Assembly: GCA_003577105.1 (NCBI GenBank)
Contig: QEUQ01000015.1
Coordinates: 1 to 63,301, forward strand
Length of the DNA: 63,301 nucleotides
Direction of reading: 5' to 3'
Source of the DNA: Acidobacteriota bacterium
GTDB taxonomy: Bacteria > Actinomycetota > Acidimicrobiia > ATN3
The notes under the pieces were generated by a model. The model saw only the letters and a list, made by a program, of their open reading frames with translations. It did no database searches and was not told the DNA's origin. Made by a program: the position numbers and the translations under genes. Below are positions 46,548-49,945 of the stretch, in pieces; positions within the stretch are counted from its first letter, which is position 1; every line of letters starts with the position of its first letter.

Positions 46548-47816
46548 ATGGGGGAGAGCCGCGCGTCACTTGAAGTCCTTCGTCGCTCGAGACGACCTAG
46601 GCCGCTCAAGCGCGTCCTATCTATTGTCCGCGCCGAATCAGCCTCGCTTCGCCAGGGCTTTGTCGCCAATCTGATTTCATCGGGTGGCGATCTGGTCGCG
46701 GGCGTCGTGCTGGGTTCGATCACCGGCATGCTCGAGTCGATCCCCGGGCTCTTGGTCCTCATTCCCGCGGCGATTGGGATGCGCGGCAACATTTTTGGCG
46801 CGCTCGGATCGCGGCTCGGCACGGCGCTTCACATGGGCCAACTTGGCAAGAGATTCACCATGGGCGGCGTCTTGGGGGAGAACATCTATGCGTCGACGGT
46901 TCTGAGCTTGGTCATCAGTCTTGCGATGGCCTTCATAGCGCGCATTGTGGCCTTGGCATTTGGCGCGCCCTCGGTGAGGGTTATCGATCTCGTCGTGATT
47001 TCTGTTGTGGGCGGTGCCTTGTCAAGCGTCTTCGTGCTTGCGATCGCCATTGCGGTCGCGGTCCTTTCGGCGAGGCGGAATTGGGACTTGGATTACGTCG
47101 CGGCGCCCCTGGTCACGGCCGCAGGAGACATGGTGACGCTCCCAGCACTCGTCGTAGCGACCCTGCTAGTCGGAATCCCGCTATTTACGTCAATTGTGGG
47201 AATCGCGCTGGCCCTGGTGGCCTTGGGCTCGTTGGTGGTGGCTTTGAGGCAAGCACCCAAGGCGTCAGTGCGGATCATCCTTGAGAGTCTTCCGGTCTTA
47301 CTCATCGCGGCTGCGGTCGATTCGGTGGCGGGTCTCACTATCGAGAAGCGCCTCGCTGACTTCGTAGCGCTGCCAGCCCTCTTGGTGATGTTGCCGCCGT
47401 TCCTCGAGAACTCGGGATCTCTCGGTTCGATGCTGAGTGCCCGAATCTCATCCAAGCTCCACGTGGGGCTCATCTCACCTCGCGTGTTTCCCACTGAGGC
47501 GCTGCCTGACGCATTGCTCCTATATCTGTTGGCGACCCCCGTCTATCTGTTCACCGGGGTTGCTTCGCACGTGGGAGCGACTTTCATCGGCGTCGCCTCG
47601 CCGGGCATTTGGGCGATGGTTTCAATTTCTCTGATAGCGGGGGCAATGGCGACGACGGCGGGAATGCTTATCGCCTACTATGGAGCGGTAGGGACATTTC
47701 GTTGGGGGTTCGACCCGGACAACCATGGTGTCCCTCTTGTGACCTCGTCAATGGATGTGATTGCAGCAGTTGCGGTGATCGTAACGATCGTCTTTCTCGG
47801 ATACTCAAGCGCATGA
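46548..47816 (+). CDS. SLC41/MgtE-type divalent cation transporter (two integral domains)
   Basis: A 422-residue polytopic protein containing two copies of the MgtE/SLC41 integral domain and none of the cytoplasmic MgtE N or CBS domains. The first copy has GSITGMLESIPGLLVLIPAA followed by GMRGNIFGALGSRLGTALH, the second VALPALLVMLPPFLENSGSL and SMLSARISSKLHVGL; the two are internal repeats. Such proteins transport Mg2+ or similar cations. It is directly followed, after 27 bases, by a protein made of two PhoU and two RCK-C domains, which could gate it. This is an arrangement of a membrane transporter with a separate regulatory protein. Confidence 0.85.
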   Translation: MGESRASLEVLRRSRRPRPLKRVLSIVRAESASLRQGFVANLISSGGDLVAGVVLGSITGMLESIPGLLVLIPAAIGMRGNIFGALGSRLGTALHMGQLGKRFTMGGVLGENIYASTVLSLVISLAMAFIARIVALAFGAPSVRVIDLVVISVVGGALSSVFVLAIAIAVAVLSARRNWDLDYVAAPLVTAAGDMVTLPALVVATLLVGIPLFTSIVGIALALVALGSLVVALRQAPKASVRIILESLPVLLIAAAVDSVAGLTIEKRLADFVALPALLVMLPPFLENSGSLGSMLSARISSKLHVGLISPRVFPTEALPDALLLYLLATPVYLFTGVASHVGATFIGVASPGIWAMVSISLIAGAMATTAGMLIAYYGAVGTFRWGFDPDNHGVPLVTSSMDVIAAVAVIVTIVFLGYSSA

Positions 47817-47843
47817 TCTCGGTTCGCGAGCAAGCTGGCTGCG

Positions 47844-49058
47844 ATGGGTGATGAGACGCCGCGCAATCTGAAGGAGATGCTCTCCGAGGCCAAGGACACC
47901 TCCGAGCTAATGGTCGACCTCGCATATGCTGCCCTGTACTACAACGCGCCTGATATTGCCGAGGAACTTGTTCGTCTTGAGGAGCACCTCAACGAACTGA
48001 CCTTTGACATGCGGGCTCTGTGCCTAGTTGCAGCGCGCAGCCATCGTGACGCGGAGCAAATGGCGGGAGTTCTTCAGGTGGTTGGGGCGGTCGAGAAGAT
48101 AGGCAACGCGGCCGTCGACATCGGCAAGATAGTGACGCGGCGCCTCGGGATTCCGGCCGGACTGATCGCGGATTTGAGCCAAGCGGACGAGATCGTGACT
48201 CGAATCAGGGTCCGGGAGGGATCAGAGGCGGACTCTCGCTCTCTCGAGGCACTTCAGCTCCCGACCGAGTCGGGAATGAGAGTGATCGGAATCCGGCGAG
48301 GCATCGAGTGGATTTACGATCCGGGCGGAGACCTCGTCGTTGTTGCCGACGACGTCCTTTTCCTGCGGGGTTCGCCCGACGGGATTCCAGGCGCCCGAGA
48401 GCTCTGCGGCGCACCGGAATGGGAACAGCCAGCCTTTGACCCTGACGAAGATCTGACAGATCTGGGGCGCGCAATCGATGTTCTCGTCGAAATGAAGAAT
48501 GTCTCGGAGGCGTCGGTCGGTCTTGCCTATTCGGCATTGCTCTTCCGCGACCGGGGCCTCGCTGCCGAGGTCTGCCGCCTCGAAGACCGAATGGACGAGA
48601 TGCGCGAGCAACTTGAACTCTGGACGCTCAGAGCGGCAGCGGATCGAATTGATCCTCGGCCACTGAGAGGTCTGCTTCACTTAGGTGTAGCCAGCGAGTC
48701 GATAGGCGATGCAGCCATGGAGATGGTCTGGATTATCGAGGAGGATGAAGACATCCACCCTGTCTTTGCGCTTTCACTCGACGAGAGCGATGAGACAGTC
48801 ATGCGAGTCGGAGTGGGCCCTGGATCGCGCGCCGATGGAGTGAGCCTCAAGGAACTTGGAGTTGAACTTGAGACGGGCGTCTATCTCCTCGCACTGAGGC
48901 GAGGAGGGCGGTGGATCTACCACCCTCGAGGGTCAACTCGCCTAGAGGCGGGTGACGAACTGATCGGAGTTGGCCCACCTGAGGGACTGCCGCTGATCAT
49001 GGAGCTATGCGGTGATGAAGGCCTCTTGAATCAAGTGGAAGAGGGCGTTCACGGCTGA
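47844..49058 (+). CDS. Double PhoU plus RCK_C (TrkA-C) domain protein
   Basis: The 404-residue protein is an internal duplication. Each half has a PhoU-like helical bundle (residues about 1-110 and 210-310; for example DLAYAALYYNAPDIAEELVRLEEHL and GLAYSALLFRDRGLAAEVCRLEDRM), then an RCK_C domain (about 115-195 and 315-395; ending VVVADDVLFLRGSPDGI and EAGDELIGVGPPEGL). RCK_C domains bind ions or ligands and gate channels; PhoU domains bind phosphate-linked regulators. It has no membrane segment or Rossmann nucleotide domain, so it probably sits on the neighbouring transporter's cytoplasmic face. The ATG lies 27 bases after that gene. The 3' end overlaps the CDF gene by ten bases. Confidence 0.8.
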   Translation: MGDETPRNLKEMLSEAKDTSELMVDLAYAALYYNAPDIAEELVRLEEHLNELTFDMRALCLVAARSHRDAEQMAGVLQVVGAVEKIGNAAVDIGKIVTRRLGIPAGLIADLSQADEIVTRIRVREGSEADSRSLEALQLPTESGMRVIGIRRGIEWIYDPGGDLVVVADDVLFLRGSPDGIPGARELCGAPEWEQPAFDPDEDLTDLGRAIDVLVEMKNVSEASVGLAYSALLFRDRGLAAEVCRLEDRMDEMREQLELWTLRAAADRIDPRPLRGLLHLGVASESIGDAAMEMVWIIEEDEDIHPVFALSLDESDETVMRVGVGPGSRADGVSLKELGVELETGVYLLALRRGGRWIYHPRGSTRLEAGDELIGVGPPEGLPLIMELCGDEGLLNQVEEGVHG

Positions 49059-49945
49059 TCCTCACACTCGTGGCATTCGAGTTCGAGTGTGGCGTGGGCA
49101 ATTCCAAACTGGGCCTCAAGCATGTGCCGAAGTTCGTCACCCTTGACTTGGGCCTCATGGAGCGACGGGTCGCCGTCTATGACCACATGGGCCGAGAGTG
49201 CCGGTACGTCTGAAGCAAGGTTCCACAGGTGCAAGTGGTGAACCGACTCGACGCCGGTTTGGGATGCCAAAGCAGTCTCGACTTCTTCGACGCTCATTCC
49301 TCTCGGTGCGGCCTCGAGCAAGATCCCCGATGCCTCGCGAAGCAACTCGACGGCTGCCCATATGACTCCCGCGGTGATCGCGAGCGACGCGGCAGGATCG
49401 AACCAGGTCTTGCCGCTGAACGCGATGGCCAGTCCGGCGATGACCGCCACTCCCGATGAGGCGGAGTCCGCGGCGAGGTGGACGAACGCCCCCTTCATGT
49501 TCACCGAGTTACCCCTGGCTCGGGCCACGACAATGGCGCTTGTGACGTTGACTACGAGACCAGCGGCGGCAACCGCGGTCAGTCCAGCACCACTAACTGC
49601 CCGGGGCGAGTTGAATCTTTCAATCGCTTCGACTGCGATCCATGCAGAGACTCCGAGAAGGAGTAGCCCATTGAGCTGTGCGGCTAGCACCTCGGCACGT
49701 TGGTACCCGTAGGTGTGCCTTGGGCTGCCGGGGCGGGTAATGAGTGCGTGCGCAACAAGTGCGATTGCTAGCGCCGCGACGTCCGAGAGCATGTGGGCCG
49801 CATCCGCGAGCAGGGCAATTGAGTTGAAGACAATTCCGCCGGCTACTTCTACGAGAAGGAATGCGCCGTTTGCCGCGAGCGCGATCCACAGGGCCCTGCG
49901 TTGCCTAGTTCGGCTCGGTGCGCCCGAGGCTGGCGCCGTCGTCAG
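49049..49945 (-). CDS. Cation diffusion facilitator (CDF) metal exporter
   Basis: Upstream of the first ATG (49792) the frame continues with clear CDF sequence: the first helix ALWIALAANGAFLLVEVAGG, then LLADAAHMLSDVAAL, so the true start lies before it. The frame opens after a stop near 49978 and the only start-like codon before the homology is CTG 49945-49943, which overlaps the preceding TGA stop (CTGA). That gives 298 residues, typical of the family. Six helices, the metal-site HMLSD and AADSASSG (with Asp in HLAADS) and a C-terminal cytoplasmic domain ending LECHECEDQP are seen. It exports Zn2+ or related metals. The non-ATG start should be treated with caution; a sequencing error is possible. 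Confidence 0.82.
   Translation of the reverse strand: MTTAPASGAPSRTRQRRALWIALAANGAFLLVEVAGGIVFNSIALLADAAHMLSDVAALAIALVAHALITRPGSPRHTYGYQRAEVLAAQLNGLLLLGVSAWIAVEAIERFNSPRAVSGAGLTAVAAAGLVVNVTSAIVVARARGNSVNMKGAFVHLAADSASSGVAVIAGLAIAFSGKTWFDPAASLAITAGVIWAAVELLREASGILLEAAPRGMSVEEVETALASQTGVESVHHLHLWNLASDVPALSAHVVIDGDPSLHEAQVKGDELRHMLEAQFGIAHATLELECHECEDQP

Follow-up and report, generated by a model that had tools for sequence, protein, structure and literature searches.

Does the product of a neighboring gene regulate an MgtE-type transporter that lacks gating domains of its own? The question is raised by two genes in the 63,301-nucleotide stretch of DNA analyzed here (the window), for which the closest relatives found among genome contigs come from Acidimicrobiia of the Actinomycetota, the group to which the window most likely belongs. 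A two-domain MgtE transporter of the SLC41 type (46548..47816, 422 aa) is followed on the same, forward strand, after an intergenic gap of 27 nt (47817..47843), by a soluble protein built from a duplicated PhoU-RCK_C unit (47844..49058, 404 aa), which we call the helper. All coordinates given below for the two genes refer to the forward strand. Pfam matches and open reading frames agree with the initial annotation in each of these respects, including the absence of CBS and N domains from the transporter. The pair is flanked by genes for a NUDIX protein and a cation-efflux protein; the latter, of the CDF family (49049-49792), is convergent to the helper gene and overlaps its end by about 10 nt. 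No Rfam family was found anywhere in the window, so no riboswitch precedes the pair, and the viral contigs searched contained no relatives of it.

Canonical MgtE of the Thermus thermophilus type is a homodimer of one-domain chains that carry their own N and CBS gating domains. The transporter in the window shares with it the PF01769 membrane domain, the pore aspartate motif and presumably the need for cytosolic gating, but its two membrane domains are fused, it lacks gating domains and the adjacent gene encodes a separate protein. Two MgtE domains per chain and no CBS are also found in SLC41A1-3 and the archaeal two-domain MgtE proteins. In a review of 2022 (PMC9276622), the double MgtE form is listed for Archaea, choanoflagellates and metazoa, and its regulation and structure are treated as unsettled. 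Regulation of CBS-less double-domain MgtE/SLC41 proteins is described as not established in PMC9276622 and PMC13022745, and those parts of the SLC41 literature that were at hand mention no helper-like partner.

MgtE (PF01769) is the only Pfam match in the transporter, with no CBS and no MgtE_N domain. It occurs twice (E 1.2e-26; 93.9 bits against a cut-off of 27.6), at 46761..47156 (E 1.5e-16) and 47394..47780 (E 2.7e-13), and the two halves align with each other, which indicates an internal duplication. Our AlphaFold2 model predicts five membrane helices, one extra helix and five more. Positive charges, counted as K+R per loop, are concentrated in the even loops and at the N-terminus, so the N-terminus is predicted to be inside and the C-terminus outside. 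In the secondary structure of the model, a short charged helix (residues 19-29; 46602..46634) precedes the first membrane helix, and by comparison with PMC8104411 it may correspond to the plug helix of MgtE. A sequence search of the solved structures with the transporter profile gave no match.

The pore residues bear on which ion is carried. P(D/A)X4PX6D is given as the pore motif of MgtE and SLC41 in PMC9276622. Half 2 contains it in full as P390-D391-X4-P396-X6-D403, unchanged in all 145 relatives, with the invariant pore residue Asp403 encoded at 47754..47756. In half 1 the motif reads D182-X4-P187-X6-D194, the first proline being missing, and Asp194 of its PX6D (47127..47129) is also invariant (145/145). 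Both halves retain the PX6G of the PX6GN motif (in 144-145 of the 145 relatives), with the asparagine present in 81 of 145 relatives in half 1 and mostly replaced by alanine in half 2. Because the pore motif matches that of MgtE and SLC41, it favors Mg2+ over K+ as the transported ion. Judged by domain cut-off and pore motif, the transporter would belong to the MgtE/SLC41 family, and with two MgtE domains in one chain and no CBS domains it matches the double-domain subgroup; with N and CBS domains absent from the chain, it falls outside the canonical gated MgtE proteins. Some annotations of relatives mention TrkA and potassium, as expected if the pair carried K+, the membrane protein being a transporter or channel and the helper its RCK subunit. 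However, the membrane protein is of the MgtE type with an invariant P-D-X4-P-X6-D, and Pfam finds no K+ channel domain. On these grounds K+ transport was ruled out as a general explanation, and we regard it as extremely improbable for this pair. The source genome also has one CorA.

The helper has the Pfam domain order PhoU-RCK_C-PhoU-RCK_C, with two matches each to PhoU (PF01895, E 2.2e-19; 47883..48134 and 48483..48725) and to TrkA_C/RCK_C (PF02080, E 2.8e-29; 48195..48407 and 48798..49010, both above cut-off). Its halves also align with each other, which again points to an internal duplication. Pfam finds no RCK_N (TrkA_N, Rossmann) domain in it, and the helper is thus not a complete RCK or KTN subunit. 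Each PhoU domain retains one ExxxD motif, E21-D25 in the first (conserved in 142 and 145 of 145 relatives) and E285-D289 in the second (145 and 143 of 145), and the second motif is reciprocally altered, with D25 matched by G226 and D289 by N88. Motifs of the ExxxD type in PhoU proteins bind metal, so that a divalent cation is the simplest proposal for the signal that the helper receives.

Other transporters are known to be regulated by separate subunits of the RCK_C or PhoU kind. Like the helper, TrkA of TrkH, KtrA of KtrB and KhtT of KhtU are soluble RCK_C subunits that sit beside a transporter, and their folds match. These proteins act on K+ systems and most have an RCK_N Rossmann domain, whereas the helper has PhoU in its place and a transporter of the MgtE type. 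PhoU of Pst resembles the helper in its three-helix PhoU domains and as a separate cytosolic transporter regulator; unlike it, the helper is fused to RCK_C, scores far below the PhoU equivalog cut-off and is encoded outside a pst operon. The closest solved relative is PH0236 of Pyrococcus horikoshii (phmmer E 1.7e-32; 36% identity; PDB 1vct, 2bkn, 2bko and 2bkp), which superimposes on one helper half with a TM-score of ~0.88 (Foldseek). As in the helper, PhoU is followed by RCK_C, but PH0236 is a single 205-aa unit with half of the domains, annotated no further than ‘putative potassium channel related’, and the helper is the fused duplicate. With this PhoU-RCK_C structure in the PDB since 2005, and with both domain types familiar as detached transporter regulators, the ‘new type of sensor’ of the initial annotation is too strong a description. 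The pair would give a role to PH0236-like proteins.

The domains of the helper suggest two further ligands. By analogy with PhoU and Pst, the helper could make the uptake of Mg2+ depend on phosphate or ATP status; RCK_C would then bind a nucleotide. Mg2+ uptake accompanies that of phosphate in cells. In addition, ATP has been published to modulate canonical MgtE through its CBS domains. Yet the helper reaches only 29.2 bits on the PhoU equivalog TIGR02135 (cut-off 130.25), the source genome has a separate full PhoU on another contig (C85), and no Pst genes were seen next to the pair, which together make phosphate or ATP coupling improbable. The second candidate is c-di-AMP, with RCK_C as its receptor as in the KtrA or KhtT systems: the RCK_C domains of the helper match solved KtrA, KtrC, KhtT and GntR-type chains, several of them c-di-AMP receptors. 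However, no diadenylate cyclase (DAC) domain was found in the source genome, and the synthase domain went undetected in 51 of the 97 Actinomycetota genomes with a helper, and in 19 of the 49 among them whose completeness is 95% or more. We therefore disfavor c-di-AMP as the general ligand and consider control by it very unlikely.

Genomic co-occurrence ties the helper to the two-domain transporter. Among 296 Actinomycetota genomes spread over the phylum, the helper is present in 97 and the two-domain MgtE in 96, all of which are among the 97 (Fisher p ~2e-78, a value that ignores the relatedness of these non-independent genomes). In the single helper-only genome (G170) the helper is cut at a contig start. 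About one third of the sampled Actinomycetota thus have the two-domain form, in every case together with the helper. By contrast, some MgtE domain occurs in 167 of the 296 genomes, and none of the 71 that, by subtraction, have other MgtE proteins only has a helper at E <= 1e-8. The genes are adjacent, with MgtE first, in 92 of the 97 helper genomes. In 90 of these both matches lie on one strand, transporter first, with 7-90 nt between them; one of the remaining two has touching matches and the other a frameshifted helper beside the transporter. As for the five non-adjacent cases, the genes lie on separate contigs in G134 and G294, and contig ends intervene in G117, G170 and G194. Over the phylum, matched stretches are separated by a median of 25.5 nt. 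In an independent GTDB collection, the transporter is located 0-178 nt upstream of the helper at 71 of 78 evaluable loci, and close linkage is lost at seven helper loci. The pairing of two-domain MgtE and helper is not due to chance, the conserved neighborhood by which the initial annotation proposed to check the pair is borne out, and the two genes almost certainly form a functional unit.

Might the adjacency nevertheless reflect shared descent or chance, with the two proteins working separately? Co-inherited neighbors can persist and the compared genomes are related. On the side of a joint function, transporter and helper protein distances correlate (r = 0.80, 145 pairs), although this is expected of any co-inherited genes. 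Three further observations argue against separate functions. First, on a plasmid of the archaeon Halobaculum roseum (NZ_CP082287.1; L008), a 37%-identical double helper precedes two half-size MgtE genes, so that both the order and the transporter differ. Second, the unlinked helpers of these sets still co-occur with the transporter, which in every case is found elsewhere in the genome: in G134, in G294 and in the genomes of L041, L045, L057, L060, L081, L103 and L115. Third, a second copy of the pair in G279 (L198, C11:45557-47772) has both genes broken, as if decaying as a unit. Separate function is accordingly a reading to which we give almost no weight. The archaeal arrangement also indicates that the transporter halves can be separate or fused, from which we infer a symmetric pore of two MgtE halves served by a symmetric regulator of two PhoU-RCK_C halves. 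The Halobaculum cluster includes genes for CorA, CrcB and a TRIC-like channel as well, an ion-transport island on the plasmid.

To interact as subunits, the two proteins would have to form a complex. The helper is in frame with the transporter, and artificial tandems were made by reading the stop codon as Trp; these are modeling constructs, and we make no claim of read-through in the cell. With the window's own 10-residue linker, AlphaFold2 gave a pTM of 0.53, about what two well-folded halves without a defined relative placement would yield, and thus uninformative. The tandem of a relative (L042) with a linker of ~34 residues, modeled from 28 tandem rows including the query, gave a pTM of 0.78 and a better ordered transporter N-terminal helix, although the comparison is qualified by the fact that query and alignment, and not just the linker, changed between the two runs. 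One row, from a plasmid record, was left out of one alignment for structure prediction. We read the gap in pTM in terms of topology: the predicted transporter C-terminus is outside and the helper inside, which a short linker cannot span. The long-linker result fits a defined complex that can form when the linker is able to reach the cytosolic face, and offers moderate support for it. The structure prediction called for in the initial annotation hence yields a confident relative placement with the long linker, contact being deduced from pTM only, and neither of the outcomes named there as refuting the idea was seen. In our judgment transporter and helper probably associate physically.

Two other lines of inquiry were less telling. 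No natural transporter-helper fusion was seen in 156 linked pairs, a result that counts for less because a helper fused to the C-terminus would end up on the outer side of the membrane; long open frames in some GC-rich loci are out-of-frame read-through. In a mutual-information analysis, 75% of the top 20 inter-protein pairs fell at predicted cytosolic transporter positions compared to a background of 26%. The same enrichment was obtained when partners were exchanged at random inside each clade, even with as few as two clades, so it reflects a lineage signal and is not evidence of coevolution; having failed this control, it was dropped as support. Transporter residues 30, 37, 175, 183, 320 and 380, on the cytosolic face, vary markedly from one major lineage to another, in step with many residues of the helper, again a lineage signal.

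We propose that the two genes encode one Mg2+ (divalent cation) transporter in which a regulatory subunit replaces CBS gating, a model that we consider somewhat more probable than its alternatives combined. The first protein would form an SLC41-like pore, in which two MgtE units are fused and one membrane helix is added. The helper, a fused pseudo-dimer, would be a dedicated cytosolic regulatory subunit. Its most likely docking site is the cytoplasmic side of the pore, itself a fused pseudo-dimer, at the place where canonical MgtE has its N and CBS domains, and from there it would open or close the pore in response to a cytosolic signal. That signal would most likely be a divalent cation on the acidic ExxxD motifs of the PhoU bundles, and the RCK_C domains would serve as a second ligand site or as a dimer scaffold. 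A gating role for the helper, in either direction, is the better-favored reading of its function, while sensing of a divalent metal is put forward tentatively, at a little short of an even chance. Of the split metal transporter with a ligand-gating helper suggested initially, the functional unit, conserved neighborhood and predicted complex stand, with gating and ligand retained as proposals.

Alternatively, the helper could be an obligate partner in assembly or stability, aiding insertion or half-to-half packing without acute ligand gating. The genomic pairing and the predicted complex would fit this equally well. The acidic ExxxD residues, however, are kept in 142-145 of the 145 relatives, and RCK_C and PhoU domains sense a ligand or metal in almost every protein in which they have been studied, so that we consider a pure assembly role unlikely. 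As for the broader extension of the gating model, in which a widespread class of Mg2+ transporters, in bacteria and archaea alike, has an SLC41-type pore gated by a ligand-operated PhoU-RCK_C subunit, we regard the chances as evenly balanced.

The pair is undescribed in the literature searched, which covered few subscription journals. Both proteins are catalogued already, since the COG collections include a family combining PhoU with TrkA_C as well as a two-domain MgtE-like permease. Even if the two-gene unit is apparently undescribed, it would thus be one more transporter whose regulatory subunit is detached, rather than a category of its own. If the broader model is true, it represents a second solution to MgtE gating and a prokaryotic model for the control of CBS-less SLC41 transporters. 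Because the helper is soluble and easily purified, regulation of CBS-less MgtE/SLC41 proteins becomes testable.

Variations on the pair occur at individual loci, and its genes are present in additional or decayed copies in a few genomes. In G106, two two-domain MgtE genes in tandem precede a single helper (L155, C63:168216-171930). The MgtE gene of L162 (G058, C121:676-1851) has one in-frame TAA and may be a pseudogene or contain a sequencing error. In G152, a divergent helper (32% identity) lies ~770 bp upstream of a CBS-type MgtE on the same strand (L197:760-4250, C97), and helper relatives may therefore serve other MgtE types too. At L013, L034 and L045, a helper that has lost its adjoining MgtE gene is arranged tail to tail with a gene recognized by eye as prohibitin/stomatin-like (SPFH).
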